Shown: positions 1-25,587 of the stretch, piece after piece | Layout of the letters: the number at the start of each line of letters is the position of its first letter | How positions within the stretch are numbered: the first letter of the stretch is position 1 | Virus record (IMG/VR): IMGVR_UViG_3300017776_000143 | Span: 1 to 27,128 of that record | DNA: 27,128 nt | Source: a virus | Direction: 5' to 3' (one strand) | Notes under the pieces: generated by a model | The model's database searches: none | What the model was told of the DNA's origin: nothing | The model's input: the letters and a program-made list of their open reading frames with translations, nothing else | Program-made: the position numbers and the translations under genes

Positions 1-198
1 ATTTGCAGAAGAACTAAGATATGGATAATCATAAACAGATTGAAACATACCGTGAGTATAATTCTTAATGTTCTGTTCAGTAGTCCCACTTACGTAAGTT
101 CCGCTCACGATTGTACCAGTGATGGGGATTGCTTCATGTAATAATGTTTTTGTAGTAACGATATCATTTGTAGATAGTGATTTATAAGTTGTAGCCAT
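1..198 (-). CDS. Phage structural protein, N-terminal fragment (cut by window edge)
   Basis: An open frame begins with ATG at 198 and runs without a stop to the left edge, giving the first 66 residues of a longer protein. The protein starts MATTYKSLSTND and is rich in Thr, Ser and Tyr. It follows the 304-aa gene after a 20-nt gap, in the same direction and with a weak GGA ribosome-binding site at 207-209, so it should belong to the same late operon. From memory this type of N-terminus occurs in structural proteins of marine T4-like phages, but I cannot name the function. The rest of the gene, and any domain that would identify it, lies outside the window. That it is a real gene is well supported by start, spacing and frame; the structural role is inferred from position. 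Confidence 0.72.
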   Translation of the reverse strand, partial: MATTYKSLSTNDIVTTKTLLHEAIPITGTIVSGTYVSGTTEQNIKNYTHGMFQSVYDYPYLSSSAN

Positions 199-218: not shown

Positions 219-1133
219 TTAAACTTTTTTGATATATCTGACAGGTAGTTCGACAGAATATCCGGTTGTAGCACCCATAACTCTGATAATGGTGTCAATT
301 GCTTGATAATTGACAGCATCAATAGTAAGATTAGAAGAGAGTCCTATTTCGTTAAATAGGAAAGTGCTATTTTCTAGGTTATCAGATGCTTTAATTGCGA
401 AACACAATCTAGTGCCTCTTCTTCCTGCGATTGAAGAATCGCCTGTAACGTCGTTCGCCACTATTTCTTTTACATATCCAGAGTTGTTTCCTCCAGAACC
501 CATTGTAAAATAATAAGTTGCAATGTTGTCGTCATCCAAGAACGAGAATGATGCGATATCAGTACCAAGAGCAATAGATCCTAATCTATGATCCATTTGT
601 ACGATATACTGAGTTTCTTTTAAGTCTGGATCGATCTTAACAGTAGAAGTCAGATCAGATGTGTCTAGCCCTTGATCAAAGAAAATAGTAGTATTATTAC
701 TCTCCAACGAAAACCCGTTGATGATTCCGTCAGTGTTTGAACCAATAGAGGTTATAGTATCATCATCCACCGCAATTAAATGCATATCGTAAGTACTGTA
801 TTTTAAGCCTTTACTAGGCAGTCCTTTGTCTTGATTAAGTTTGATTACTGGTAAATATAATAAATTAGATCTAGAGATCGTAATCAATTTACTCTTCATT
901 GTCGATGTATTGTTTGTGAACGCTTCAAGTACGGGAGTCTGTAGGATCTCCAGATCGTAGTATGCAGAGCCACTTGAATGATTCTTGTCATAAAGTCCAT
1001 AATTAATCTCATCGTCACCCAATGCAAACTTTGCGACGTTAAAACTTCCGTCACCCCTTGCTAACCTTTTTCTACCTGTATCTGTTAAAACAGCGTCTAG
1101 GATTATATCCCCAGAATTATCTAAAAAACCCAT
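219..1133 (-). CDS. Virion structural protein with N-terminal GR-LA-DDE motif (304 aa)
   Basis: The 304-residue protein opens with MGFLDNSGDIILDAVLTDTG followed by RKRLARGDGSF and then KFALGDDEINY (residues about 10-46). The same pattern is found at the start of the 342-aa protein at 5898-6926, so the two are likely paralogous in their N-terminal domain. The rest is polar and looks beta-rich, with many Asn, Asp, Thr and Ser and no signal peptide or membrane segment. The start is supported by a GAGGA site at 1141-1145, seven bases upstream of ATG. It is preceded by the longest gap in this half of the operon (57 nt), which holds short repeats. The virion role is inferred from the neighbours and from remembered resemblance to T4-like marine phage proteins. 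Attachment to a tail or neck part through the shared N-terminus is a guess. Confidence 0.8.
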   Translation of the reverse strand: MGFLDNSGDIILDAVLTDTGRKRLARGDGSFNVAKFALGDDEINYGLYDKNHSSGSAYYDLEILQTPVLEAFTNNTSTMKSKLITISRSNLLYLPVIKLNQDKGLPSKGLKYSTYDMHLIAVDDDTITSIGSNTDGIINGFSLESNNTTIFFDQGLDTSDLTSTVKIDPDLKETQYIVQMDHRLGSIALGTDIASFSFLDDDNIATYYFTMGSGGNNSGYVKEIVANDVTGDSSIAGRRGTRLCFAIKASDNLENSTFLFNEIGLSSNLTIDAVNYQAIDTIIRVMGATTGYSVELPVRYIKKV

Positions 1134-1152
1134 ACTTTCTTCCTCATATATG

Positions 1153-1178
1153 TAAATAGTATTTCATCATAAATAGTA
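1153..1178. repeat. Direct repeat TAAATAGTA x2 in intergenic gap
   Basis: The 9-base sequence TAAATAGTA occurs at 1153-1161 and again at 1170-1178 (plus strand), a 17-base period, between the 639-aa and 304-aa genes. The second copy is part of CATAAATAGT, which recurs exactly at 25578-25587 in the gap before the gp25-like gene. It may be a binding or promoter element, but in AT-rich DNA a chance match cannot be excluded. Confidence 0.4.
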
Positions 1179-1195
1179 AAACATTATCATTTATG
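1168..1195 (-). repeat. Imperfect AT-rich palindrome spanning the stop of the 639-aa gene
   Basis: Read on the minus strand, 12 bases (1184-1195) can pair with 12 bases (1168-1179) around a TGTT loop, with one G-T wobble and one A-C mismatch. The outer seven pairs, CATAAAT with ATTTATG, are perfect. The stem includes the TAA stop codon (1191-1193) of the 639-aa gene. No run of T follows on the minus strand, so it is not a standard intrinsic terminator. It could be a weak RNA hairpin that shields the 3' end of the upstream message, or a dyad for a DNA-binding protein. Confidence 0.35.
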
Positions 1196-3110
1196 CTTTA
1201 ATTACCTTATTCTTTTTGAACGTTACGTTAATATCTATCAACTTCCCTGTATTTTTGCTGCGTATACGGAATTTAAACTTACGAAACTTCTCTTCACTAG
1301 AGTCGCTGGATGCTAAGATATTGTCCGTTGAAACACCAATGTCGATGTATTTCCCTTCAGCATCTTCTAGATTTGTCAATGACTCTTTTGGCAATAAGTA
1401 CTGCCTAGGAGATAAACCAATCTTAACGTACTTTTTAAACTTTTTTTCCTTCTGAGACGGTGGTTCGGGCTTTGCCAACGACACAATTCTAATTCTAGGA
1501 TATAGTGTCTCCCCTTCCTTCACCAACACAAACTCGTATATCGGAGATGGATTAGATACAAATCCATTCCTATCTTGAGTCCTAAACATGTAGTAATAAG
1601 TTTGATTTGGAATCACGGTATCTTCGTAAGCAGCAGAATAGGCATCGTGAGATTGAATTACCTTATAGTTTTCGTTTGAAAACTCTTGATACACAACCGG
1701 CTTCTTGTTCAATCTAAAGAACTCAAAATCTGCAGGATCGTCTGACTCGAATATAATCGGTAGCCCTTCTTCTATATTTTGAGCCTTGTACTGATCCTTA
1801 AAGTGTGAAGTGTCCGAAGGGTTAATATAAACGGGTACCTCTGCCCTTTTGTCTACCATCTGGTTAAACATTATCAAGACTTTGTTATCTACGCCTCTAT
1901 AAGTTATTAACTCAACATCAGGGGCAATCGGGGGCGAATCTAATATGAATATACTCTCCTTATAATAAGGCTCTTCGATAAAAACAGCATCCTCTTCAGA
2001 GGTTTTTAGCATGTTGACAACCCTTACATCATAAACGTATTCCTTTCTATAGGCAACCTGTGTATCGAAAAATAAAAATGTTTCTAAATCTGTATAGTTG
2101 AAAAAATAGTGTACACTGTACAGATCTCCCTCATCACTTTGCTTTTCTACCCTAAAAGCGACAGGAAACGCATTACCTATAGGCATGTTTTTGATCATCT
2201 CTTTAGCCTTTACTTTAAAAACCTGTGCTTTTAAAAAAGATTCAAAGTACTCACAAGCAGATTGCTCTTTGGATGGTTCATTGATAACCTTGTCACTTGC
2301 CTCTTCTACGAACGACACGAAGTCATCATATCGATAGACGCAAACTAATGAAGATAAAACTCTTTTTTCTTGCTCACCCAAATAACTAAACTCAGAATTT
2401 AAGTTAAAATCAACCGGCTGAGATGACTTGTTGTCATTTCTGGTTGATACTAGAAAATCTATAAACTCACTATCCAATTCATATTGTTCTAATAGATTGC
2501 AGATCTCAGTTTTTTCAACACCACTCAGTTTAAACTTCGAAAACATAGGAAACATTTCTCTCTTATTATCACTGTCTACGTAGACTTTGGCTACCTCTTT
2601 ATTGATGAATTCTACTCTATTGTATCCGGGTAAAATATTTCTAGACTCTCCAACAACCTGTGTTCGGATACCAGAATCATTAAAGTAGTCTATACTTCTC
2701 TGCCTTTCATTGAAGAAGTCTTTGCTTAATACTCTGTCAGGGCTTTGCTCGTCACCGTTTAATTTATAAGAAGTGAACATTAATTCCCTTATAGACATGT
2801 CAATCATTTCGTTTGTCATCAAAAGCCAAGCATTTAGCGATGGCATTAGGGCAAACAAGTTAGAATTGTGCAATTGTGTAGTCAGGTTTTGATATATAGA
2901 AGCAAAATAGTTGTACTCATAGTCAATATCTGCGTACAACTTTGATCCCATATCTATTTCCATAGTACTGTCAGGATTTTGTGGAGTTTGTTCATTTATC
3001 AGACTCAAATACAAGTCATTCCTTTCGTAAGGAACCATATAACTGTGATTTAAGTTGTATGAAACTCCATTGACTTCTATCAAGTCTTGATTTACTGTAT
3101 AATATTTCAT
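1191..3110 (-). CDS. Uncharacterised virion protein with FN3-like domain (639 aa)
   Basis: I do not recognise the family. The first 300 or so residues are acidic and aromatic-rich, with predicted helical stretches (for example around NAWLLMTNEMIDMSIREL). Residues about 391-533 look like a fibronectin-type-III or other Ig-like domain: a PPIAPDVELITY start, a buried-hydrophobic beta pattern, and an end reading TYYYMFRTQDRNG followed by SNPSPIYEFVLV, typical of the last two FN3 strands. Residues about 555-639 form a Lys-rich tail ending in alternating beta-type sequence. No signal peptide or membrane helix is seen. The ribosome-binding site is weak (GAGAG at 3121-3125, 10 nt from ATG). The gene lies 13 nt after the 924-aa gene, so translation may depend on coupling. 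FN3/Ig domains are common on phage virion surfaces; a baseplate-peripheral or tail decoration role is inferred. Confidence 0.75.
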   Translation of the reverse strand: MKYYTVNQDLIEVNGVSYNLNHSYMVPYERNDLYLSLINEQTPQNPDSTMEIDMGSKLYADIDYEYNYFASIYQNLTTQLHNSNLFALMPSLNAWLLMTNEMIDMSIRELMFTSYKLNGDEQSPDRVLSKDFFNERQRSIDYFNDSGIRTQVVGESRNILPGYNRVEFINKEVAKVYVDSDNKREMFPMFSKFKLSGVEKTEICNLLEQYELDSEFIDFLVSTRNDNKSSQPVDFNLNSEFSYLGEQEKRVLSSLVCVYRYDDFVSFVEEASDKVINEPSKEQSACEYFESFLKAQVFKVKAKEMIKNMPIGNAFPVAFRVEKQSDEGDLYSVHYFFNYTDLETFLFFDTQVAYRKEYVYDVRVVNMLKTSEEDAVFIEEPYYKESIFILDSPPIAPDVELITYRGVDNKVLIMFNQMVDKRAEVPVYINPSDTSHFKDQYKAQNIEEGLPIIFESDDPADFEFFRLNKKPVVYQEFSNENYKVIQSHDAYSAAYEDTVIPNQTYYYMFRTQDRNGFVSNPSPIYEFVLVKEGETLYPRIRIVSLAKPEPPSQKEKKFKKYVKIGLSPRQYLLPKESLTNLEDAEGKYIDIGVSTDNILASSDSSEEKFRKFKFRIRSKNTGKLIDINVTFKKNKVIKA

Positions 3111-3123
3111 TTATTTTTCACTC

Positions 3124-5898
3124 TCAGTCTAACTTTAAATAGAAATATCTAGATAATATTTCCCTATCGGATGTAGATCCTTGCCCTATTTGAATTTTAG
3201 AGTTCTGAAATCTCTTGAATTTGCAGAGAACACCTCCTGTTTGATTGGACACATTGTTTGCAATAGATCTTGCATTTTCAATATCCGTTAACTGTCTCCA
3301 ATCTGGATTCATGTTCTCGTCAAGCCCTGCAAGATAAAAAACCATGAAAGTATTATCTAAAATAAATCTGGATAATGGCATTTGTACTTCAGATCCTTTG
3401 CCGTTTTTTGCATATCTAAAATATTTTTCAGTTGAAAAATGTAATATGGGGTGTGGCTTTTCTGCAACGTTACTGGAATAGTTGAAATTGTAATCAAAAC
3501 TTCTGCTGTTCTTTTCGCCTTGAATAAAACTTTTCCTATCAAGCATGCTATATCCGTCTCGATTAATCAACATTCTCATGACAACATCTTCAATTTTAAC
3601 TTTTTCGAAGAATATGCTTTGTTTGATATCATCTCTTTTTTCTTCAATTTTTTCCAAATCATCGTCAGTTATAATCTCAAGTGTTCCATAGTTTGACTGA
3701 ACAGAATTGAGTAGGTTTTCTCCATTGTCGATACCAGAAGAATATCTCTTCTTTGAAATTTTTGGAATGTCAATTTTTGTATCAATAGAGTCTATTGTAT
3801 TATTCTCTATCGTTCCGCCCATAGTTGTCAAGAAGGATTCAAACATTCCTGAGCCGTTCTTAAGTTCGTTGATCGTGCCATCATAGCCTTCTGGGTTAGT
3901 GTTTAGCAGGGCATTAGACAGCCCGTCATCTACAATGTCTCCTCTTTCTAATATATTGGCAAATATATTTAGATATTTCTTGACTATGTCTTCTGAAGAA
4001 TATGGATCGATCCCAGAAAGAGACGAAGGAGTTGCGAAACCGAGATTCTTTGATTCAATATTGATCGGTACATTATGGTTCTGTTTTTCTAAATCCATTC
4101 TGGCTTCATATTCAGACTCTGATATCGCGACAGTGTCCGGAGGAACAATTGCGACGACACCATATTTGAAAGCATCTGGAGATACACTTATATCCCAAGT
4201 TCTAGTATACGTTAATACTTTGTTTTGGTTTTTTGCGGCATTTGCTGATTCGTTGTTAATCGCTGCTGTGGGAAAGTACCTTCCTGCGGCAAATAAAAGA
4301 TCTTCAATTATTCTTTTCATGTTTTCTAGTTTTCTTCGCTCAAATGTGGATATGTCAGATATGTCCGTAAATCCCTCACTGTTGGCTAGCGAAGAGTACA
4401 GTTTTCCTGTAAGCGCTTTAAACAATTCATCAGTCGCAAATGCTTGCACGAATAACTGATTATCAGGTGGAAAGATTTGTCTTAAATCAGATTGTGCCTG
4501 TGCATTCAGTTCATCTCTCAGTTCATTGTAGTTTTGAGGATTGTTGTGTATATATGTTATCGCCTGATTAAATCTAGATAACAAAGTCTTTACCGGATCT
4601 ATAAACTTTTCTGCATATATAAATATTGGATCTAAGAAGTCAATCTCTAATTTGTAAGTATATTCTCCATCGGTTAAGTTCTCAAAACTTATATCTGACA
4701 CTTCATAGTAAATTATATCATTTGTGAGTTTGGCGGTGGATATCAAAACTTCTGTGTCCTGAAGTGTGGTTACGTCGAAAGAATCTTTTCTGACTCTGTA
4801 CACTCTGGTGCTCAGTACTTCAAAATCTGACAGTACTGCATTTGAATTTGATGTCAGCAGATTATCATATATGAATTTGGCACTAGAGTTTCTTCTACAC
4901 AACTCTCTTATGTTTAGGTAAAAGCGATTGTGTGTTCGAATCTCGCCATCGTCATTATGAACATAGGAAGAGTACATATCACTAGTGATCCCTGAGTTTA
5001 GGGAACTTTGATTGCCAGTAGCCAAAGACACCTGATCTATCACTTGATCATAATCGGATATACGATCAGGGCGAATAATTTCTTGTATTCTCTCTGTTAG
5101 TCTAAAATCCTGAACTTTGCTCGATGCTGCCATACCATCTTCTAAAATACGACACTCGTCAATATCTTTATAGAAAAATTCTATTGTTTCTGAATTTACT
5201 GGTATTTGAACTCCATCTATCAGGGAACTAGCATTAAAAAAGCAAACACTATGCATGTAACAAAACTCTACCTCAGTTTTATTCGTAAAAGATAAATCTT
5301 CTTTTATTATCTTAAAATCATAAAACCTATTCCCATCATCGTCAAAAGTAAAGTCACCATAATTTTTAATCAATTCGTTGCTGTATTCACTGAACATTAT
5401 AGATTTTGTTTCCAACAGTCCGTCACGATAAGCGCTTTTGATATCCAAGTAGTGATCCTCTAAGCCATCTATAAATTGATTGTTTCTGGCGATACTGGTG
5501 GAATTAAAGGCGCCCGAATAGAAACTTAGGAACTCTTCATAAACGATATCAAAATTATTCAAGAAGCCAATACTAGCCTTTTGAGTCATATATTGAAAGA
5601 GTAGGCTCTGCTTTGCTGGGCTTATTCCTATTTTGTTCACCGGATTCCAGTAAGAGTCTAGAAAATCTGCAAAATTTCTAACCCTTTCATCTCTGGAGAA
5701 CACGACAAATAATTGCACGTTGTTCTTGAAAGTGTCGGACAAGAGATAATCGGCAATACCGCTATCATCTTCCACGGTATCATGCACTGATGCATCGATC
5801 ATCACTTGGTACTCTTCGTAGTTACCAGTTGCGGATTCCAAGAAAATGCGATTACATTTAAAACTTGGAACTAAATCGTCTAAAGTACATGCTGCCAT
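3124..5898 (-). CDS. Uncharacterised large virion protein (about 924 aa)
   Basis: The frame extends to a TTG at 5904, but ATG at 5898 is preferred: an excellent GGAGAGGA site (5905-5912) sits six bases upstream of it, while the TTG would abut that site directly. With this start the gene overlaps the stop of the 342-aa gene by one base (TAATG), a classic coupled junction. The protein begins MAACTLDDLVPSF and has no signal peptide. It appears mostly mixed alpha/beta and soluble, with a charged helical stretch at about residues 736-770 (DDDLEKIEEKRDDIKQS) that may form a short coiled coil, and a C-terminal part ending YFYLKLD. I recognise no named family. Its size and place after the giant protein suggest a baseplate or tail component. 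T4 gp7 and gp10 are large wedge proteins in a similar neighbourhood, but I see no sequence evidence of homology. Confidence 0.75.
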   Translation of the reverse strand: MAACTLDDLVPSFKCNRIFLESATGNYEEYQVMIDASVHDTVEDDSGIADYLLSDTFKNNVQLFVVFSRDERVRNFADFLDSYWNPVNKIGISPAKQSLLFQYMTQKASIGFLNNFDIVYEEFLSFYSGAFNSTSIARNNQFIDGLEDHYLDIKSAYRDGLLETKSIMFSEYSNELIKNYGDFTFDDDGNRFYDFKIIKEDLSFTNKTEVEFCYMHSVCFFNASSLIDGVQIPVNSETIEFFYKDIDECRILEDGMAASSKVQDFRLTERIQEIIRPDRISDYDQVIDQVSLATGNQSSLNSGITSDMYSSYVHNDDGEIRTHNRFYLNIRELCRRNSSAKFIYDNLLTSNSNAVLSDFEVLSTRVYRVRKDSFDVTTLQDTEVLISTAKLTNDIIYYEVSDISFENLTDGEYTYKLEIDFLDPIFIYAEKFIDPVKTLLSRFNQAITYIHNNPQNYNELRDELNAQAQSDLRQIFPPDNQLFVQAFATDELFKALTGKLYSSLANSEGFTDISDISTFERRKLENMKRIIEDLLFAAGRYFPTAAINNESANAAKNQNKVLTYTRTWDISVSPDAFKYGVVAIVPPDTVAISESEYEARMDLEKQNHNVPINIESKNLGFATPSSLSGIDPYSSEDIVKKYLNIFANILERGDIVDDGLSNALLNTNPEGYDGTINELKNGSGMFESFLTTMGGTIENNTIDSIDTKIDIPKISKKRYSSGIDNGENLLNSVQSNYGTLEIITDDDLEKIEEKRDDIKQSIFFEKVKIEDVVMRMLINRDGYSMLDRKSFIQGEKNSRSFDYNFNYSSNVAEKPHPILHFSTEKYFRYAKNGKGSEVQMPLSRFILDNTFMVFYLAGLDENMNPDWRQLTDIENARSIANNVSNQTGGVLCKFKRFQNSKIQIGQGSTSDREILSRYFYLKLD

Positions 5899-6926
5899 TA
5901 ACAATCCTCTCCATCATTATCACTAGTATATAGTTCTGTTCCGGGAGTTTGTTGATAATCTTGAGACACAAGATTGCTATCAAATATGTTTCCTCTCTTT
6001 TCTCTAGCAAATATCTTCTCTCTTTTGGTTTTTTCGTCTATGCTGCCATCCATAGATATGTCAAAATAAAACTCTACGAATTTATTGTCTATAGGAGCCT
6101 CTGATATCTGCTCTTCGATCTCTTCTTGATCCAACAATATACCATCGACGATTGGCTGAACTTGTTTCTTGAACATCTTAGGAACCAATATTTCTTTCTT
6201 ATCTTCGTCTTCTGTAATTTCGTATACTTCTAGTGAGAACGAATCATTCAGCAAATCGACATTTGCTTCAGCAATATCTAGAACAATAAAGTCATCTACT
6301 ATTCGAATGAATAAGCCTTCTTCAGACTCGGATATAAATCTATCTGTCTCTGGATCCGAGATACCTTTAAAGTCTTTTCCAGTCAACATAGGCTGAGCAT
6401 TAAGATCTACTTGAATCTGAGGTACACTAATGATCGGCTTTTGGCACATGAATGGCGACGAGCAACTAATATTTGAATCATAAGTCGTTGATCTAGAACT
6501 GTTGAACCTTCCTTCCATAAACTCCACTCTCCATGCCGCAGTATATTGATTTCCTAATTGTGACTTTCCAAGAGGTAGTACTTCTCTCAAGCCATCATAA
6601 TCTTGAAAAACGGATGGATCAGTTTTTAAATCAGTTACATTTGATTCGTGATATGTGTCTCCGATTTTGTCGTGAGTTTGTTTTTTTACTTTCGCCTCTA
6701 AGTCTGTAAAGTTTGTCTGGCATCTTATAGAAGGGGAGTTCTCTTGGATCCTAGGTTCAATATCATTATTGTCCTCTACGATTCCTGCTCTGGCTGCGTC
6801 ATATAATATGTCGTCATCAAAGAAAGCATAATAAACGGGCTTGAATTTGCCTGCTGCTAACTTTTGCCTGCCGTAAGACGACAATTTGAGTTCTAATATT
6901 TCTTCTTTTTTGTTAAAAAACGTCAT
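5898..6926 (-). CDS. Virion structural protein, paralogue of the 304-aa protein at its N-terminus (342 aa)
   Basis: The protein starts MTFFNKKEEILELKLSSYGR, then QKLAAGKFKPVYYAFFDDDI and LYD (residues 1-43). This matches the N-terminal signature of the 304-aa protein at 219-1133: Gly-Arg, then Leu-Ala-x-Gly, then an aromatic strand, then Asp-Asp-acidic and Tyr. The remainder is very acidic, includes a Gln/Glu-rich helix (DQEEIEEQISE) and ends DNDGEDC with a terminal Cys. There is no signal peptide or membrane segment. The start is supported by an AAGGAG site at 6934-6939, seven bases upstream; that site overlaps the TAA stop of the giant gene (6938-6940), so the two are tightly linked in translation. 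Its stop overlaps the ATG of the next gene. A virion role is inferred; the precise position in the particle is unknown. Confidence 0.8.
   Translation of the reverse strand: MTFFNKKEEILELKLSSYGRQKLAAGKFKPVYYAFFDDDILYDAARAGIVEDNNDIEPRIQENSPSIRCQTNFTDLEAKVKKQTHDKIGDTYHESNVTDLKTDPSVFQDYDGLREVLPLGKSQLGNQYTAAWRVEFMEGRFNSSRSTTYDSNISCSSPFMCQKPIISVPQIQVDLNAQPMLTGKDFKGISDPETDRFISESEEGLFIRIVDDFIVLDIAEANVDLLNDSFSLEVYEITEDEDKKEILVPKMFKKQVQPIVDGILLDQEEIEEQISEAPIDNKFVEFYFDISMDGSIDEKTKREKIFAREKRGNIFDSNLVSQDYQQTPGTELYTSDNDGEDC
5905..5912 (-). promoter_or_regulatory. Ribosome-binding site deciding the 924-aa start
   Basis: The minus strand reads GGAGAGGA TTGTTA ATG. The six-base spacing fits the ATG at 5898. 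The upstream TTG at 5904 directly follows the site with no spacing and is therefore an unlikely start. Confidence 0.75.
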
Positions 6927-6937
6927 TTGCTATCTCC

Positions 6938-9900
6938 TTAAAAATCTTTCGGCTTCAGCCTGTCCACGAAACCGGCTAAATTTGGAAAAATACTAACCAA
7001 ATTACTATAAACCACCAGAATGAGTATGTTTTGCTTTGCTCTCTTTACGTAGTTTCTTTTTCTTCTGCTGCTCAATTTGTCCCACTGCTTGTTTCTGTCT
7101 CTCAAGTCATCTTTAATCAATCTCTTGAACTCTACCAATATTGACATTTTGGCATCTCCATAGTTGAACGCATCTTCTTGTTGAGTTTCTTGTGCAGAAA
7201 ATACAGACTCTCCTGTTCTTTCAGGAAGTTCTGATTGGGACGATCCGACTTCTTCGCCGATTGCTTGTACAGCCACGACATCTTCATTCAAAACTGGCTC
7301 TCCGATAAGATCTGCTGTAGAGTAATTACCACTGCCTTGAGTTACATTAGAGCCAGTATTGCCTTCTGTAGGTTTCTGAAGGTGGACATCTACGCTTAAT
7401 CTTACGTTCTCGACTAATGAGAAATAGTCATACGGCCAGTTATACCCAACCGTTGAGTGGTTAGCGATTGGCTTTCCTAAATCTTTATCCATCTTTTCAT
7501 CATATGAGAAATTTCCTCTTTGCTTGACTTTGAATATTCTCCATCTAACTTTCTTAAGAATGTTCATGTTCGGACTAATGTCTTTCAAAGAGCCGAGCAT
7601 TCCTTCTGGAGATAGAACGTGTGTTATAGATTGCTGATCTTCATCAACTTTCTTTACATCTTCTGTTATTACACCCTGCCACAATCCGTTAAGATCGTCT
7701 CTTTCTAGAGTTTTCGTAAACTCAAATACATACATCGGAATTGGTTGCACGTCATAATTAATAAAATCTAAATGTGGAGGGAAGACATATTCTTTCATCT
7801 TTTGAATTTGTCTCATAACTTCTGTATCTTGCGACATTCCATTTTCCAACTTCAAGTTCAAGTACTCTGGAATTCCATCTCTATTCGATATGTACGGTAC
7901 TGCAACGACAGCCTCTTTAACAACCTTAGTCTTAGCAGTAACCCCCATTTTAACCGGCTCTTGGCTAAAACCAACCAGTTCAGCCAGTGATTTAACTGGA
8001 TCAGAATTACTGTGCATAAATTGTCCAGATCTAATGGTTGAGGGATTTTTGGTAATGTTCTTTTCGTTCTGTGGGGCATACTGTGGTAAAGTTTTAAAAT
8101 ATGCTAAACCTCTTTGGACTAAATCGCTAGACGCTGTAGCACCACCACCATTGTATCTAATCGCTCCGCGCACAAATTGTGGCTCAAAATAAGTATACGA
8201 CGAGGTATCTGAAGCCGCTAATGCAGATACTGCTGGATTTTCTGGTATCAGCCCAAATCTTCTAACTTTTGCCTTTCCAACTCTTCTTCCTGATTTGAAT
8301 TTTTTGGAAAAAGGTTTCGTAGCGGTAATTGTTTTGTTAATCCTAATAGCCTCTTCGTTAAGGCTTTTGTCACTTTGAGAGGCTAAGACAGTTCTTCCCC
8401 CAATCAAATCCGACAAAGAAGCCCTAGAAGCGTCTGTCATATTCGTCTTTAAAAGTTTTCCAACAGTTAATTGATTATTATTTTTTTCTAAAATCGAAGA
8501 GATGTAACCCGGTATCAATACTTTGCCACTAGATGCAGAAAAGCAATCAACTTCAACCTGATCGTCAAAAGTTGGAGATTGTTCGCTATAAACTACTCCA
8601 ATCGAGAAATCTGCTAAGAAATCTTCAGGCACTCCAGTGGGATACTCTCCTTGAGAGTATTCTACAGAAGAATAGTTTTTGGTAACAACCAGCAGCGGAG
8701 CATAACTACTAGGACGATCAATTGGGTAATAACTTGCCGCCCATTGCCCTTTGTAGGTGCCCTCAGTTGTAGCAGTAATGTTTAATGATGCCCCAGCCTC
8801 ATCAGCCAGTTTTAGCACTGTGGAGCCTGTAAAGTCTGATGATCCTGTCAATTTTTCCAAAGTGTAGGCTGAAGTATCCTTGAATACATCAAATATTTTA
8901 AAGTTGTTAGCCACAGATCCTGTATTGTCTAAGGTTTGCCCAGAAACACTCTCAACGTCTTCTTCTCTTAATTCTGTATCGATAATTATGTCTGTGTCTG
9001 GGTTGAGAACTTGTATTGCACCACCTTCAACAGCAAACTCGTCAGCCCCAACAAGACGACGTCTATTGATTTGCTTCTTAAAGTATGGGAACAAAGTATT
9101 TTCTGCATTGACATTGTACGAAGAACTAAGCCCTGCGTCATCACAAGACGATACATCTGGCTTGACAACAACATATTTTGGATTAGGAATTGCTAATTCA
9201 GTACCTAACTGTTGATATTCAACAGGCATATCGATCATTTGCATGAAAATTCCCTTTTCTGCTTCTTTGGGAAACTCTCCATATTGATGCCACATACCAA
9301 TTGGATTCAAGACACCGCTAAGTTTATGTACTGTGGACAGTGTAGAATGAACTGAACTCAAAGTATCTGGCTCTTGTCTAGATCCTGAAAGACTAAGTTG
9401 GCTGGTGTATATATCGTCGGAAGTAACATCAGACTCAAATTCAGCATTATATTCTCTATTTAAGTATTTAGAGAAGTCTAATATTGGAGTCTCAAACTTA
9501 GATTCAATAACCCATGAATTTCCTTCTCCTCCAGACTTCACTTGCTTAAATAAATTGAAAGATGCGTCAACTTGCATAGCGTTATCATTGATCGTAAACC
9601 CTTGCGGCCCAAAGGTACCTCTGTCTCCGAAAGATCCAGACTCATGATTCAATTCATATCTTAAAAATTCAATATTTGTATTCTCTATGATCTCGTCTAG
9701 AGTATGTTTTCCTGCTCTTTTTGGGGTAAATGTATAGATAGCCCAAGCCTCTCCGTCATAATAGGGAGGAGTAAATGGCGCATTATACCCATTTGTCGAG
9801 TCATACATCATATAAGTGGTATTATTATTTCCGGTACCTTGCGGAGTACTTCCAGATATTGATCCAAACTCAACAGCAACTCCACCAGCACACGGTGGGC

Positions 9901-12900
9901 CGAATGCGTTGGGTTGAGAGTACATCGTTATAGTCTCCACTTCTGCGTAAGAATTGAGATTAGGGCGTGGATAATTTACTTTCTCGACGCTGTATTCTAG
10001 TGCAGATCCAGTCAAGCCTTGATATTCGTTCAAAAAGTAGTTTGTTCCACTTGGAGGACGATTGTGGTACCTGTCATATGTACCTGAAGGATCAGAAGCA
10101 TTTGTAATAATGTCTGCTGCTCCACTAAACTCAACGTATGGGTGTTGTTTTCTAGACTTGTACACTCTAAAGATAGAACGATAAGTTGGCAATATGTTTG
10201 CATGATTCGCTATCACAATTCCAAAGTCAGGATCATTTTCAGGTTTTGATATAATTTTAGATGATTTTCCTCCTCTCAGGAAGAATTCCATAACTTCAGA
10301 GAAGAAATTACTTGACATTAATTTATAATTTGAGTCTGATGCTTCTCCTATCTTAGCCTTAAGGTTGAAAGAAGAACTAGGATGTGGATTGGTATCAACA
10401 ATATATTCTTTTGACATGTATGCTTCTGGAACTAACAGTGTTTCAAACGGAAGCCTATCATCAAAGAATTCATTACTAATCATATGATTTACACCGCCAT
10501 AAGGATCCTTGAGACTTGCTGTAGCCATCTTTGACGTCATGATAGGGTAATCTACTGCCATACCAGACTTAATAGTGTTATAGAGCAATCCCGGAGACAT
10601 AATAGCATCAAACACAGGACGCGTCTGTGCCATCACGTTATTATCTGGGAACTCGATATCAGTATCGTCCGGATTTGCTTCCTGTGCTGTTATACCTTTT
10701 CCATAAGAACCGGCAAATGCTTCGCACATCTGCACAGTCCTAGACTGAGGGTAGAAGCCATCATATGGTAAGAAACTTTTAATCGCGTCACAAGTAAGTG
10801 TAAGTTTGAGTGGAATAAGTTCTAAATCGCCTGTATTGTCTTCGATAAAGTCCTCTATATCCCTAATGTTTGTACTAGTAGAGTATTCTCTTAAAAACTC
10901 TGATGAGTTTCCTCTCTGGTTTTTAGCCACAGTTGCTCCATCATCCAATGATGCTCCTGTGATTTCAAGCCAATAGTTTTGTGCAAAGTATGATCTCTCA
11001 TCATTTCCGTCTGCAATAATACCTTCAACATGGGAACTTATTCTGTATTCAGGTACCAAAGAGAAGTGCTTGTTGTTTCCTCTGATTCTTTCGTACCAAG
11101 AATTATAATCGTCATCCATTGGTGCAAGTCCAGATAAATCCGGAGTTGTCCACCTTGAAGTGTTATCGAACATTCCATCAGTATCATATCCTAGTGATCT
11201 AGTTAGCGCAAAGTGGTTTGATCTAAGTTTATACCCTTCGTGAATTAATCCTAAATTAGATTTTGCAGTAGGATTACGTAAAGATCCGGGAGACTGTAGT
11301 GTATGAGGATATGCATATCTAGGTTGTGGCTTTATTTCTTGGAACCTTATGCCCCTAAATATACCGTTGACTCCGCCCCCAAGTCCAACTAAACTAGCGA
11401 AAGAGTCATTTCCGGTTTCTGTTATTGTAGCATTTTTTGCTGTTCCTGTGACTGATGATGTCAATGCAAAGGATCCAGTATCAGATGCTACGGTGAATGC
11501 TGCAGACATGTCCGTATTAGACTGCACAGCAGCCGTCAAGGCGTTGAAGAAAGCATTGTCGGTTACACCACTTGCATTGACTTGCGTTGCGCTAGGAGAT
11601 GAACTATGGACGATTGTGAACGTTGTTCCGTCAATAGCAATTGTATCACCTGCTGTTGCTCCAGATTCGTCTGTACCTCCGGCGGTGTTATTGGTGATTG
11701 TGAAACCAGCATTGCCGTCATCAGAGCCAGTAAATACTTGAAGAATATCTCCGTTATATATGGCTCCTGTTATAGATGAAGTTAAAGAGAAAGATGCCGT
11801 ATTAGAACTGGTAGCAATATTGATCGTGTCATATGCAGTATTTGTCTTGATTGCTGCAGATAGAGCATTCCAGAACTGGGTGCTCTTAGACGCGTCTGTT
11901 CCTGAATATCCAGAGACATCTATGTATATATAATTTGTGGGAGAATCGTTTGATTCATCCCCAGTCAAGTCAACTGCGAAGAATCTATCTCTAGAGTTTT
12001 CTTCGTCTCTAATCTTGATGTGATCTAAGTCTTGAATTCCGATTGGTGACGTACCGCCTGCAGCGCCTGCTAAGTTTTGGAATGTCGCTCTTGCGCCATT
12101 TGTGTTTTGTGCGAAAGATACATTCTTAGCAGTTCCAGTAACAGAAGAAGTCAGACTAAATCTATGATATCCGCCTCCGATGCTGGCTATTGCGATTGTA
12201 TCAAACACAGTGCCACCCTTAATTGACTGCGAAAGGGCATTGTGGAAATTTGTTGTAGATCCTGTTCCTAGTCCACTACCGATATTGATTGAGAAAGTTT
12301 GCCCATCAATTGTAATGGTGTCGCCATTCTCTGCTCCTGATTCATTTGTACCAGCAACTCCTGCGCTAGTAACTGTAAATGTGGCTGCGTCGCCTGAAAT
12401 ACTAGGATTTTCTGATGATCCTGTGACTTTTGAAGTTAACGTGAATGCCCTAGGAGTACCAGAAGAAGCAGTTGCTGCATTGAATCCGGTGCTAGTTTGA
12501 ACTTTAGATCTCAAAGATTCCCAAAATACAGCGTCTGAGACGCCACTGGCTAACACTTGTACTGCAGTTGGAGATCCAGAATGAACAATAGTAAATGTTG
12601 TCCCGTCAATAGTAATGGTGTTTCCATTGACAGCGCCAGAATCGTCAGCACCATTAAGGAATTTAGAGTCTAACTTGGCAAACGTTCCTCCACTAGTTCC
12701 ACCGTTTCCAGAGCCACCGCCGTTTCCGGCAGCACCAGTGATATAGTTTGTAACTGTGAATGTTCTAGGATTGTCAGAGGCTTGGACTACGCTAAACCCT
12801 TCTGCTTCAATTGCTGTCTCTATTGTATTCCAAAAATCTGTATTCGATGCTCTTGTTGAGTCAACATAGATTGTGGTAAATCCAGTCCCACCGTTAACAG

Positions 12901-15900
12901 ATGCTGAATAATTTAGCCCACCAGTATTTGAATCATCTTTATCGACAACAATTTTAAATCCATTTGCGTTTTGTCCTGAGACTGCAAAGAAATCAATATA
13001 ATGCCCATCTACCGCACCAGACTCGTTGGTACCTCCCTCAGAGTTCTTGGTGACGTTGAATGATGCATCTGAGGATGCGATTACACTATTGTCCGCAGAG
13101 CCAGTACTATCTGCCTGTAGATTGAATGTCGCCACCTCTCCTACCGAAGATGTGCTAGTGACTGTAAATGAAGAACTGGCATCAATTTCTGCTTTGAGTT
13201 CATCCCAAACCTGAGTGTTTGTTACGCCTGTTATTCGGACGTTTGTAGCGTTAGTATATGTTCCCGGATCGTCGTCTAGAGTAAATGCAACTCCATCAAT
13301 TGTAATCGCATGTCCATCTACTGATCCTCCAAGATCTACACCACCTGCGGAAGGGGAGACTAGGGAAGATATCAATGGAGAGTCTTCCGTATGAGTATTA
13401 GAGTTTGCTGCTGTTCCTGCGGTTGTCGCTGTGATTGTGAACGAAGCACCAGAATTACTAGCATTATAACTCGCAACGCCAGAATCAATTGCCGATTCAA
13501 GATTCCCCTGAAGAGTAGAGTCATTAACCTGATTATTGGGTAATCCGTTTTGACTAGTAAAGTGTGTACCATTTCCAACAGTTAAATTAACCTTAAGCCC
13601 TCTTGGGGTAGAATCTGGTATAGTTGTAAATGATGCTAAATCCGAGGTTGCGGAGGGGAAAGAACCTTCTTGCCCTAATTTAAACCAGTGAACTAGACTT
13701 GCTGCTGCGTCATGCCTAAGTAAATCTTTTATCCTTCCGTCATGGTATGCTTCTGATGCCTCATTGGCTGTCAGAACTTTATCCCATATTGCCAACTGGT
13801 TTAACCTACCAGTTAAATCATAGTTACTTGCACTACCTGCAACATTGGCTACAACTATTTCTGTGAACGTGTGACTGAACGCTGTAGCAGTTCCAGAAGT
13901 GGAAGGTGAACTTTGAGCAGCCCCATTCAAGTAAAGTACCGCTGACATACTGGAAACGTCAAATGTTATGACATAATGATTTAAGTCTGCTATGTTTATT
14001 GCTGAAAGACTGAATGTGAAAAGTTTGAGTGTCGATGCATTTTCATAAAGTCTAAGGTTCAGATTTCCACCGCCGGATGAATAATTTACCAATAATGCCC
14101 CAAAACTAGAATTTCCTCCGGAAGAATCAAGAGAAACAATTGATTGAAAACCACCTTCAGAACTATTATAAGAAGCATAGAAAGATATACTAATATCACT
14201 TCCGCCATTAATCGTAGATGCTGCTGGATACGAACCGTTATTGATTATGCCATTACTGGTTGTGCCACTAAGGCATGGTTCAAAAGTTGACACAAACGTT
14301 GCAACTTTGGGAGATGCTTGAGAGTTATTGTGATGATTGAACGAAACTGTGGTTCCATTAATCGTAATACCTGTATCTTCAATTGAAGTCATAGAGTTAA
14401 CTTGTGCTGATCCTGAGTTAATCGAATCTAGTTCTCTAAAGCCTTTTAATTGATCATTGGTGGCTGCTGGAGAACCGATTGATGCTGATGGTGCAAATTC
14501 GTAGTTTGCATTTGAACTTTCTAGTTTAGCAGTTACGAAAAACCTAGCATAGTTTAACTGCGTACTTAGAGATACAATTTGTCCAGTGATATTGGATGAT
14601 GCATCTTGTGGCTCTACGTCAAAACTAGATGTGTGATACCATTTTGTATCGAGTGCTGATAGTGCGGTTTCAGTAAACTGTTCATATGAAAGATCGAAGT
14701 ATGTATTAAAGCCTGATAAACCGGCAATCGTAGAAGATAGTTCATTGAAGTACGTGGTTGCACTTTTGATTGTTGCAAATTTAGAATCTGTAAAAGCAGG
14801 ATGATTGGTAATCACATTCAAATCATATGATGTGGTTGTTGATACATCGTTGATGTTGCCAGTTCCTATTAGGTTACTATCACTTCCGTCATCTCCAAAA
14901 GTATATCTGAATACTTGAGCAGAGGCAGAAGGGAAGTTAGGAGAAAACTTTCCACCATTATAAAGTTTTGCTGCAAAGTCTGCTAGTTCAGTGCCGTCAT
15001 CTGGATCTGGACATACATCATATACGGTGAAATCAGAAACTTCTACCGCCGAATTCCACTGAGATGTACCATTATCTCCCATTAAAAGATGCCCAGTTGG
15101 TGAATACTGCGTTGTAGTGAAGGTGTTAGAACCGGATAGTTTTGTATCAGGCACAGTAGCGCCGTGAAGTACGCCATCGACATACAATCTGTGTACAGCA
15201 GGCAGATTTTGGTGACGGAACAGTGTGAATTGTCTCCACTTGGAATCTCCTCCAACATTTGTAAACGTCGTTTCATGGAATGCCGGATTTCCTAAATTAT
15301 CTTGCACAAAATGCCTATATATCAAATTGTGCTGAGCGTCCGAGCCATCATCTGAATCAAAAAACAATTCGCATGAGATAGCACTACCACTCATCGCTTT
15401 GTAAAGAAATTTTGGACGTCCAGTATCTAGAGATCCGTCTGTTATCTTAAAATAGCCAGATAATACTATATCATCAACATTGTTTCCATATTCAACATTT
15501 CCGGATAAGTATTGAGAGCCACTAACTTGTAGCGCTTTTTTGAAAGTAACCGGAGATACACTTGCATTAGTTCCAACTACAAGAGAATTATCATAATCAA
15601 TTTCTACTCCTTTATAGTTTGATGTGTGAGGGTATATGGTATGTCCATCTATCGCTAACTCATAACTCGCATCAAAATGCAAATAGGATCTTTCACCACC
15701 TACAGGTAATCCACCTAATGTGAAAGTAGATGCTGCATTTGCTTCAGGGATGATAGCACCTGATACCTCAAACGTTCCTGTTGCTTGAGTTCCAAGCACT
15801 GTCCTTTCGTCTGCTGTAAATCGGAATGACGAACTTACGGCAGGACTAAACGCAGACACGGCAGTGAATCCACCAGTCCCATTTGTTCCTTGTACATTTG

Positions 15901-21898: not shown

Positions 21899-23357
21899 AT
21901 TTCTCTACTCTAAATTTAAATGCCTTGTTTATTGGTTTGTAGTCAGCGATAAAGTCATCATAAAATGCCAACAGAATCCCATATGAATATCCGGGCTCAA
22001 GAATAGACATATCAAAATCGAAATAACTTCCTGAGCCATCAAAAGATAACTCTGTGAATTTGATACTTCCCGTAGCATGTTCAATAACTTTGTAGTTGTC
22101 GATAATTCTAAATATTTCATACGATCCTGATGTTGGAATATACAATTGAGGTTCTGCAACTGCTCTTGTGTAAATAGTTGGACTCCAGCCTTTTAATCTT
22201 GTATAAACTCTAAATCTTGCTGTTTCGTTACTTTCGTAAACTTTCTTTAAATTAGTGATAGAGACATAATAGTCGTTTGTTTTTGTTGTTGTTCCAGTGT
22301 ATCTGATTTCTGGATAAATTGTTCCAGTGTGAAATTGTGTTGAACCAGAGAACCACACGTCGTGTAGTGTCTCGGATGTTCCCGTGAGAGCAACAGAAGC
22401 GCTGTATATACCAGTAGATATATGAGATCCCGTTACTGTAACAAGGGCTGTTCCGTTTGGAGCAGAGTTCGATGACTCGTATAGGGACACTAATAAGTTT
22501 CCTGTCCCAACAGAAGGAATGTTTTTTAATCTCCCACCGATATTGTTATAAATATACAGATCATTTAAGTTATCTACTGCCGGAGCAAGTGATGAACTGT
22601 AATAAAAGTTTGATCGATCATCCTTAATCGATGAATCCCATCTCGCCTCTATAATAGGGCGGTTAAACCAATACTCTGAATCTCTTGCAGAGAATTTTTT
22701 AGTATAGTAACTGTTTGAGTCTGCCTCAAAACTTGATGAGAACTGAATAACATGTCCATAGTTGTTTCCTGAATTTAGATCTTCGCTCAAAACGTCTTCA
22801 ACGTATCTTGTTATATCTACTTCAAAATTTTCAAGCCCTGTATCAAATTCTTGTTCCATTAAATAATCAGTCGTTACATTTACGTCAGTTGATGTATTTG
22901 AAGCACCAGCAGTTGCCCACGCTGTTGTGGAAGAGGCAGAAAGCCAATTTGACTGTCCAATGTCAGTGAACTCATCCAAATCCATACCTATCCCTTCATC
23001 CCATGCTCTTCTAAGGGGATGGGCAACTAGTTTGTAATTTCTAGGTAGAGTCTCTGGATGTTCGACGTTGTGCAGTTTCATGAAAAATTTAACAGAGCCA
23101 GAAGAAGGTAGGATACTTGCATCTCTATCTTGCTTGATAGTTCTTATTCCTTCGTTGAGATCAGTCTCGTTAATTGGGAACTTAATAAGTATTCTTGCTT
23201 GCTCAACAGAACCAGAAGTCACTTGTCCATATAATTTGAATATCTCTAATGAATCAGCAAGCCCAGCATTACCTGAAGTCTTTCTAGATCTTAGTGCTTG
23301 ATTGAATTGATTTGTTATTGTGTTGTCAGCAATTGCAGTGTATCTTTTAATAGCCAT
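21888..23357 (-). CDS. Beta-rich virion structural protein (489 aa)
   Basis: The protein starts MAIKRYTAIADNTITNQFNQ, an N-terminus I associate with structural proteins of T4-like marine phages. Residues about 1-240 have the look of a DNRLRE/carbohydrate-binding-type jelly roll: a strand reading ARILIKFPI near 55, a WDEG loop, then FEVDITRYVEDVLS near 182 and IQFSSSFEAD near 205. Residues about 270-350 resemble an Ig-like strand domain (LLVSLYESSN, GIYSASVALTG, VWFSGSTQFHTGTIYPEI). The C-terminal 100 residues form another beta-rich part. No signal peptide or membrane helix. The start overlaps the gp6-like stop by one base (TAATG) with a GGAGC site at 23366-23370, and the end overlaps the giant gene, so all three are likely made in linked amounts. 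A baseplate-attached or fibre-adaptor role is inferred from this position; domain names are by eye only. Confidence 0.8.
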   Translation of the reverse strand: MAIKRYTAIADNTITNQFNQALRSRKTSGNAGLADSLEIFKLYGQVTSGSVEQARILIKFPINETDLNEGIRTIKQDRDASILPSSGSVKFFMKLHNVEHPETLPRNYKLVAHPLRRAWDEGIGMDLDEFTDIGQSNWLSASSTTAWATAGASNTSTDVNVTTDYLMEQEFDTGLENFEVDITRYVEDVLSEDLNSGNNYGHVIQFSSSFEADSNSYYTKKFSARDSEYWFNRPIIEARWDSSIKDDRSNFYYSSSLAPAVDNLNDLYIYNNIGGRLKNIPSVGTGNLLVSLYESSNSAPNGTALVTVTGSHISTGIYSASVALTGTSETLHDVWFSGSTQFHTGTIYPEIRYTGTTTKTNDYYVSITNLKKVYESNETARFRVYTRLKGWSPTIYTRAVAEPQLYIPTSGSYEIFRIIDNYKVIEHATGSIKFTELSFDGSGSYFDFDMSILEPGYSYGILLAFYDDFIADYKPINKAFKFRVEKYET

Positions 23358-25168
23358 TATTTAACGCTCCCTTTAATATCGATTGTTGGAAATTTAACCT
23401 CAAATATACAATTCAGAGGACAAGCAACGAACCTGCCATCTGGAGTTGTGTTTGCTCCGATTTCTATTCCACTTCTAGAGTATGCTCCTCCGTTTTTATT
23501 AGTGACATGCACATCTGTTGTATCTGCTACCCCTTCAATCTTATTGAGCGTGGCATATACTTCTGTGTAACTAAAAGGCTCGGCAATATCGTAGTGTCTC
23601 AAGAAGCGGTTTCTAAGCGTCCTCAGACACTCGTCAAGGACTTTAAATTTATCAAAGCCACCCTTAGTCACTATGGTGAAAGAAATGCCTAGATTGAGTA
23701 TTTTTGCGTCCATAATGTCCAAAGTATCATTAACCATCCGGTACTGATTCAGCCAAGTTTTAATATTGTTTTTGATAATATCATTTGAAGTAGTGAGGTT
23801 TCCTGCACTATTTTCTGATATTATGTACATGTTTAGGTTTCTCTTAAACGAATCTTTGTCTTGTAGTACGGCGCACCTCTTAATTGCTCCAAACTTTGGA
23901 GGCATATTATAAACCAAAGATTTATAGTCTTCTCTTGTCACTGCTCGATTCTGTGCTGCAAAGAAAGATTTTGTTCTGATTTTTAATTCATCTGTGGTGG
24001 GTATGTTGGCATGCCCAATGATTGGATCATCGTTTGAAGATTCTAGAGAGTTTTTTACCTGAGCGAGTTTGGCAGAATCTAACGTAGTTTCATCTTCAAA
24101 ACTGTATATTGCTCTTGTAATTTGTGTTACAGATCCAACTGAAGCATTTGGATTATTACTACTATTAACTCTGAATACTACATTTAGGACAGTGTTAACC
24201 GGTGATACTCCGAACTTATCAGTTCCCAAAAGATTACTAGGATCGAAATCTGTATTCGTTATATAGTCTCTCCCAAATTGATCTAATACTACATTACTAG
24301 GATCAACAACCTTGTCGATTTTTATATCCTCTTCAGATCCAAAGCCAAAGATTAGGTGGGTTTCACCCCTGTTTCTCTCAATGACAAACCTTCTTGGTAC
24401 CGCAGTAGGCTTAAGCAACATTGGTGCAGCCTCTCTGGTGGAGGAATCATTGTTTGGAATCTCGCGATAGATAACATCTTGCCCAAGGTGTTCAACTTCG
24501 TAATATTCATGCCCTTCTCTATCGGTGCAGTCTAGTATTTCTGCTACATTAGTGTCGCCCAACAAAATTTTATTAAATTTCTTGAATGCCCCAACAGTTA
24601 AGTTCTTTTCTGCCAATCTACCAGAGACTACTCTTCCAATCGCTTTGATAATATAATGGGTTGGAAGCCCAGTGTTGGTGTTAACTCTTCCCACGACAAT
24701 CTCATTAGTAGAGTCCCGAAAATCTACATCTTCAGTTAAGATAAAGTTTTCTCCTGCTGTAGATGCCAATTCTGTTCTTCTCTTCAGAATCGGAATGAAT
24801 CTAGAGTCTGGAGCCAATCCAGTAGAATCTGATGGGATTAGTATGAAAAACGAAACATAACCGTGAGCAGATGGTTTACCTCTGTACTTATATCCCATTT
24901 GGCGTGTCAATTTTACTACATTATCATATTCATTTGCAGTATCCAAGAAGGACTCGTTTGCTTGGTAGTCCAAGTAGAAAGACAGGATATCTCCAGTATA
25001 AGCCACTTGATCGATCACAAGCGAACCAAAAGAAGCATCGTTAAAGTCTTTGTATGTGTCTGGATAGTACCTTCTAGCGTGATTAATTAAGTCTTGCTTA
25101 ATTGAATTAAAATCTCTACTAGTGTATTTGATGGGTACTTTTTTGTTTTTATCATCGTATTTAGCCAT
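23357..25168 (-). CDS. Baseplate wedge protein, gp6/baseplate J-like (603 aa)
   Basis: A structural protein of the contractile-tail baseplate. In T4, gp6 forms the inner ring that holds the wedges together and, with gp25 and gp53, contacts the tube and sheath. The hallmark is the N-terminal stretch at about residues 16-80: YTSRDFNSIKQDLINHARRY, then FNDASFGSLVIDQVAYTGDI, then LSFYLDYQANESFLDTAN. A second typical feature is RAVTREDYKSLVYNMPPKFG near residue 410, followed by beta strands, and a C-terminal part with TEVYATLNKIEGVADTTDV. The length is near that of T4 gp6 (about 660). The start has a GAGGG site at 25175-25179, six bases away. It lies 13 nt after the gp25-like gene and overlaps the next gene by one base. 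Family assignment is firm; exact contacts are inferred from T4. Confidence 0.92.
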   Translation of the reverse strand: MAKYDDKNKKVPIKYTSRDFNSIKQDLINHARRYYPDTYKDFNDASFGSLVIDQVAYTGDILSFYLDYQANESFLDTANEYDNVVKLTRQMGYKYRGKPSAHGYVSFFILIPSDSTGLAPDSRFIPILKRRTELASTAGENFILTEDVDFRDSTNEIVVGRVNTNTGLPTHYIIKAIGRVVSGRLAEKNLTVGAFKKFNKILLGDTNVAEILDCTDREGHEYYEVEHLGQDVIYREIPNNDSSTREAAPMLLKPTAVPRRFVIERNRGETHLIFGFGSEEDIKIDKVVDPSNVVLDQFGRDYITNTDFDPSNLLGTDKFGVSPVNTVLNVVFRVNSSNNPNASVGSVTQITRAIYSFEDETTLDSAKLAQVKNSLESSNDDPIIGHANIPTTDELKIRTKSFFAAQNRAVTREDYKSLVYNMPPKFGAIKRCAVLQDKDSFKRNLNMYIISENSAGNLTTSNDIIKNNIKTWLNQYRMVNDTLDIMDAKILNLGISFTIVTKGGFDKFKVLDECLRTLRNRFLRHYDIAEPFSYTEVYATLNKIEGVADTTDVHVTNKNGGAYSRSGIEIGANTTPDGRFVACPLNCIFEVKFPTIDIKGSVK

Positions 25169-25181
25169 TTACTTCCCTCTC

Positions 25182-25562
25182 TTAGATTGCCACAGAAAAT
25201 GCCATAATAGCACCTGTGTTATTGATACTGAATCTGATTGTAACTAGTAATTGATTTGCACTTATATTGTCATTATTTTCTTCTGTGCTAAACAAAATAT
25301 CATGAATTTCCAAAAACCCCATGTATTGCTTCACTTGTTTTTTTATCCTAGCCCTGATTACAGAATAAGTTGAAGCATTGTTTTGTTCGAATAAAAACCT
25401 TTTCATTCCTACTCCAAAGTTTGGATCCATTATCCTCTCTCCCGGACTAGTAAGGAGAATCATCTTAAGATTTTGTTGTATAACTGATACAATCGTTTGG
25501 TTGTTTTCATAGCCGTTTGAATCGCTAATCGTTAATGGAAGTCTTGGTGAATAGTTGGACAT
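25182..25562 (-). CDS. Baseplate wedge protein, gp25/GPW family (126 aa)
   Basis: Small wedge component of the contractile-tail baseplate; in T4 and related systems it bridges the inner baseplate and helps start sheath assembly. The family signature is clear: ILLTSPGER (residues about 35-43) followed by DPNFGVGMKRFLFE (46-59), then a helix (TYSVIRARIKKQVKQY) and strands ending in SINNTGAIMAFSVAI. The frame also contains an ATG at 25578 (132 aa), but that codon has no ribosome-binding site and lies inside the CATAAATAGT element, whereas ATG at 25562 has GAGG eight bases upstream. The older name of lysozyme for gp25 does not fit its structural role. It precedes the gp6-like gene by 13 nt, the usual partner. 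Identification is firm; the start is well supported. Confidence 0.93.
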   Translation of the reverse strand: MSNYSPRLPLTISDSNGYENNQTIVSVIQQNLKMILLTSPGERIMDPNFGVGMKRFLFEQNNASTYSVIRARIKKQVKQYMGFLEIHDILFSTEENNDNISANQLLVTIRFSINNTGAIMAFSVAI

Positions 25563-25569
25563 AATAGTT

Positions 25570-25574
25570 ACCTC
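25570..25574 (-). promoter_or_regulatory. Ribosome-binding site deciding the gp25 start
   Basis: The minus strand reads GAGGT followed, eight bases after GAGG, by ATG at 25562. The alternative upstream ATG (25578) would have this site inside its coding sequence and nothing comparable before it. Confidence 0.75.
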
Positions 25575-25577
25575 AAC

Positions 25578-25587
25578 CATAAATAGT
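25578..25587. promoter_or_regulatory. CATAAATAGT element before the gp25-like gene (candidate)
   Basis: The plus-strand sequence CATAAATAGT (ACTATTTATG on the coding strand) lies in the 29-nt gap between the 509-aa and gp25-like genes and is identical to 1168-1177 in the other long gap. It resembles the T4 late promoter TATAAATA, but read on the strand opposite to the genes. Whether it is a promoter, an operator or chance is open. Confidence 0.3.

Follow-up and report, generated by a model that had tools for sequence, protein, structure and literature searches.

Do two proteins of one phage tail operon attach to the particle through the same N-terminal module? The question arises from a 27,128-base virus record (the window, meaning the whole stretch of DNA analysed), in which a preliminary description noted that a 304-aa and a 342-aa virion protein begin with a similar signature and then differ, and suggested that one docking module serves two related attachment sites. 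Both ORFs lie where it placed them, the 304-aa ORF at 219..1133 and the 342-aa ORF at 5898..6926, each on the minus strand and separated by 926-aa and 639-aa ORFs. In the 304-aa protein the strings it quoted correspond to residues 16-31 and 35-45, and in the 342-aa protein to residues 15-28 and 33-43.

Results

The tail operon occupies the minus strand, as do all window features described here. As listed, it starts with a 509-aa ORF, followed by two genes that serve as operon markers. One encodes a gp25-type baseplate wedge protein (25182..25580; PF04965, E 2.5e-13; phrog_261, E 1.1e-15), and the other a gp6-like baseplate wedge protein (23357..25168) with 31% identity (E 1e-90) to gp112 of Flavobacterium phage immuto, annotated as a baseplate wedge protein. 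After the gp6-like gene comes one for a 489-aa protein, whose relative in immuto (E 1e-8) is encoded by the next gene there. A 4986-aa ORF (6938-21898) then precedes the 342-aa ORF; its translation contains recurring ITIDG-type segments, its only Pfam match (PF05354, E 2.2e-4) falls below the cut-off, it matched no PHROG, and its DNA showed no tandem repeats. Between the 342-aa and 304-aa genes, the 926-aa ORF (3124..5904) matches no PHROG and passes the cut-off of no Pfam family, and the 639-aa ORF (1191..3110) has no Pfam or PHROG match. Downstream of the 304-aa gene, the window edge cuts the next gene after its first 66 codons (1..198).

We collected relatives from viral contigs, taking the best 80 of 170 for the 304-aa protein and 54 for the 342-aa protein. 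The 134 related loci (20,426 ORFs) hold 124 ORFs of each family; some contigs contribute two loci each (L001 and L081, for instance), and these are not counts of independent phages. From 107 and 108 distinct 304- and 342-family sequences, 104 and 100 had a usable start, and removal at 85% identity or more left 89 and 91 locus sequences for the whole-family alignments, A1 and A2. Two further alignments, A3 and A4, comprised every second A1 or A2 locus sequence, with three phage records added to A3. For a background of real proteins, we used 12 operon families drawn from 107 ORFs of nine loci, leaving out families with fewer than 15 distinct members.

Compared one on one, the two window proteins are only modestly alike. 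BLASTP aligned them with 17 of 45 residues identical (E 8e-4), and the Smith-Waterman score of the full proteins was equalled by 18 of 2000 shuffles, which would be compatible with convergence or chance. Restricted to the first 60 residues, the real score was equalled in none of 5000 shuffles. Profiles were far more decisive against a chance likeness. Whole-family profiles aligned residues 1-76 of the 304 family with 1-74 of the 342 family (hhalign E 3.3e-6), and the N-termini (first 80 columns) reached E 1.1e-9, 96.4% probability and a score of 49.8, as against 20.8 for the best of 200 column-shuffled profiles. The match was also reciprocal and exclusive. Among the 12 operon families, the 304 module matched, besides its own family, only the 342 family (score 48.8; next 15.3), and the 342 module only the 304 family (45.6; next 23.0). 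Searched against the 20,426 ORFs of the 134 related loci, the 304 N-terminal profile (first 75 residues) also recovered 79 ORFs of the 342 type and the corresponding 342 profile 121 ORFs of the 304 type, with no other ORF matched by either at E ≤ 10. We therefore regard convergence or chance as very improbable.

Homology of the two N-terminal modules is thus well supported by sequence profiles, over a stretch of about 45-75 residues (906..1133 for residues 1-76 of the 304-aa protein; 6705..6926 for residues 1-74 of the 342-aa protein). The remainders, in contrast, gave a hhalign probability of only 0.7% when the C-terminal parts were compared, which led us to reject homology along the full length and bears out the earlier impression of one module carrying different outer parts.

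Each module type occurs once at full strength in all 13 IMG/VR marine contigs of 160-194 kb, where every further match to its profile was the module of the other type. No third copy appeared at E ≤ 1 in 16 records, of which those from IMG/VR may be fragments. The window's own record was also searched at the DNA level, with a badly designed pattern, and gave no match. Gene order is fixed, with the 342 gene upstream of the 304 gene on the same strand in 114 of 114 loci containing both, at a distance of 4.2-8.7 kb and with two long ORFs between them in 91 of the 114. In ten loci the 304 family was seen alone, and in ten others the 342 family alone, to which contig ends may contribute.

The two types differ in how strongly they are conserved. 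The 304-type consensus reads LT..GR..LA.GDGSF.I.KFALGDDEINY, and mean column identity is 79% for the 304 type versus 51% for the 342 type; moreover, the more distant records W01-W03 gave a full-strength match for the 304 type only. Both observations would fit homologous N-termini that merely persist from an old duplication, their conserved residues now in different roles and engaging no common partner. We consider this quite unlikely, given that several identical positions, T, G, D and Y among them, are conserved in both types.

The conserved 304 pattern is reminiscent of the N-terminal domain of the phage P2 tail fibre gpH (PF12571, Phage_tail_fib, alias DUF3751), and we therefore tested that domain; the comparator was thus picked for its motif and not by blind search. 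The P2-type profile combined nine phage fibre N-termini and two viral contigs. Residues 13-43 of the 304-aa protein (1005..1097) aligned with P2 residues 6-40, referred to here as block 1, with hhalign probabilities of 86-92% and scores of 37-42 (best shuffled controls, 19.4 and 18.1 in 200 shuffles); the whole-protein 304 profile gave 64-79%. The block-1 pattern, LTxxGxxxLA..G..I..xAVGDG near the N-terminus, is thus present in the 304 family. Against the 12 operon families, the P2 profile scored above 17.2 only for the 304 family and two families described below. In a PHROG scan, two 304-type relatives weakly matched tail-fibre profiles, in each case at the N-terminal end of the profile (phrog_1780 at 6-42, phrog_10153 at 7-42 and phrog_381 at 6-37; E 0.07-0.43), although matches of similar quality link other family members to PHROGs of unknown function. 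Separately, phrog_1623 (virion structural protein) matches two of 90 A1 members, with a best E of 2.8e-4. The 304 module resembles block 1 of the P2-type domain and may be its distant relative.

The 342 module did not match P2 directly (hhalign 0.3-0.8%) and connects to it only through the 304 module; merging both module types lowered the P2 match to 30-40%. Pfam scans of the 304-aa and 342-aa proteins gave no PF12571 match, none of 90 A1 members matched PF12571 at E ≤ 1, and its curated cut-off of 23 bits was exceeded in none of 16 records. The C-terminal sequence of the 304-aa protein had hinted at the second conserved block of the P2 domain (block 2, residues about 85-129), a candidate we rejected after comparing that part with P2 (0.3% and 1.9%).

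Block 2 lies in the genes next door. PF12571 matched weakly in eight of the 16 records (best E 0.01-0.03), always at profile positions 87-121. In L005 and L014, the two loci read in detail, the matching segment is the C-terminal end of the gene that immediately follows the 304 gene. The first downstream family aligned with P2 residues 85-128 at 92% probability (E 5.5e-7), and its C-terminal part at 96% (E 8e-9), with a score of 49.3 as against at most 21.9 in 150 shuffles. The P2 block-2 pattern GGFxIREIGLYDxxGxLIAVAN is absent from the 304 chain and carried by these next genes. In L005 the pair spans 10916-12016 and then 12609-13808, with a counterpart in L001 at 12595-13812, and its motif reads YITxVGLYxxDNELLAVAKLSEPLKK. 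The window's own partial ORF (1..198) matches the N-terminus of the first block-2 gene (homologue L001|10936|12039, E 2e-38), whose full-length relatives end in block 2.

This arrangement recurs across the related loci. Two block-2 ORFs follow the 304-type ORF in 108 of 124 loci, one in nine and none in seven, and a block-2 ORF upstream of it was found in 0 of 124. In each of the 117 cases the first block-2 ORF is no more than 42 nt away from the 304 gene, and the motif ends no more than three residues from the C-terminus in 223 of 223 strong matches reaching the end of the model. An HMM built exclusively from P2-type sequences detected 28 of the 20,426 ORFs, of which 27 were of the block-2 kind and one, matching at profile 7-37, was of the 304 type; no single ORF among the 20,426 contained both blocks. 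A plain Pfam scan found PF12571 in 13 of 44 block-2 proteins (best E 0.028; one score was 12.9 bits, versus the cut-off of 23) and the immunoglobulin family PF00047 in 22 of 44, lying ahead of block 2 in the first member (residues 16-48). In Microcystis phage Mel-JY01 (L136), a weak PF12571 block-2-like match (E 0.03) lies close to the end of an ORF of 722 aa (25653-27818) that is not part of the pair immediately following the 304-type gene. We do not claim PF12571 membership, since scores stay below the cut-off and the blocks reside in different chains.

Structure models separated the two ends of the 304-aa protein. Its C-terminal part (residues 84-304; 219-884) was modelled mostly with high confidence as a beta-rich domain, a predicted beta sandwich, whose best solved matches were common Ig-like and pilin folds (Z 6.3 or less). 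The N-termini of both models are of low confidence. Foldseek searches with the whole models returned no convincing match, the 342 model had no fold match at E ≤ 0.001, and PDB chains gave no useful sequence match for either family. The best 304 match in BFVD was an unnamed protein, A0A1B1IUS2 (E 2.3e-10).

Low confidence in a monomer model is what one would expect of a segment that folds only in an oligomer. The module, which is short and contains a helix, could accordingly be an oligomerisation or folding cap, such as a trimer-forming N-terminus, in place of a baseplate docking site, and the T4 periphery proteins gp9-gp12 are trimers (PMC3004832). P2 block 1, however, belongs to the N-terminal end of the fibre, for which an orientation towards the baseplate has been suggested (PMC6363177), and we judge the cap explanation unlikely.

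Discussion

We favour, at roughly 55%, the reading that the 304-aa and 342-aa proteins are baseplate or fibre-attachment proteins carrying paralogous copies of one docking module distantly related to P2 block 1. It builds directly on the homology of the modules, the single copy of each per large contig, the fixed baseplate-to-fibre gene order and the resemblance between the 304 module and block 1 of P2. The module would plug each protein into a baseplate-side partner, and the unrelated remainders, including the beta sandwich of the 304-aa protein, would face different neighbours. Docking gains indirect support because the 304 type resembles P2 gpH block 1, and the P2-type fibre N-terminal domain has been suggested to contact the baseplate on account of its location (PMC6363177). 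The shared module would then be the baseplate-facing end of both proteins, with the remainders serving two related but distinct positions. On this reading, both proteins would be present in the particle and would dock to a common or related partner. Because the modelled N-termini are of low confidence and the 342 type lacks a direct P2 match, the two related attachment sites proposed in the preliminary description are an inference. In the literature searched, which includes PMC7077304, we found no virion proteomics of cultured relatives.

A more specific idea, which we offer tentatively and hold to be doubtful, is that a P2-type anchor has been split. Block 1 would be on the 304-aa protein and, in diverged form, on the 342-aa protein, and block 2 on the downstream tandem pair. 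The anchor would be rebuilt between chains at the fibre base, and two block-1 and two block-2 proteins would yield two related anchor sites. In P2, both blocks occupy one fibre chain; here they are spread over separate proteins, and the 304-aa protein, unlike P2 gpH, runs on into its own beta domain, with the Pfam cut-off reached by none of the proteins seen.

Sharing of a module among baseplate proteins has a precedent in T4. There, gp10, gp11 and gp12 are baseplate proteins with one ancestral module in common, to which each has its own additions (PMC3004832), the common fold being a helix plus a small beta sheet, the 'flower' motif. The 304-aa and 342-aa proteins resemble them in that one phage has several proteins built on one ancestral module with different additions. 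They differ in that the 304 and 342 families match no solved structure by sequence; in T4, the common part came to light through structure and not through sequence. Immuto, Mel-JY01 and the uncultured phage LR756508 carry the same N-terminal module as the 304-aa protein. In the annotated genomes of immuto and Mel-JY01, the 304-type gene likewise follows baseplate wedge genes, its product is shorter (219 aa and 211 aa, respectively), and in immuto the region is flanked by these wedge genes and by genes annotated as tail fibre and tail spikes. Unlike the window, all three phages have the 304-type module only, with no separate 342-type module found.

In the literature searched, neither a shared module nor a split anchor of this sort was named. 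Module sharing as such is known from T4 gp10-gp12; the 304/342 pair itself, its proposed connection with the P2 anchor and the placement of two anchor blocks on neighbouring genes are new. Genes of the 304 and 342 families recur in many environmental contigs, some of 160-190 kb, and they lack functional annotation, relatives in cultured phages included. The link to the P2-type fibre anchor provides an initial, testable idea about the mounting of fibres in this group, and a domain split across adjacent genes, if true, would clearly illustrate the way in which baseplates become complex.
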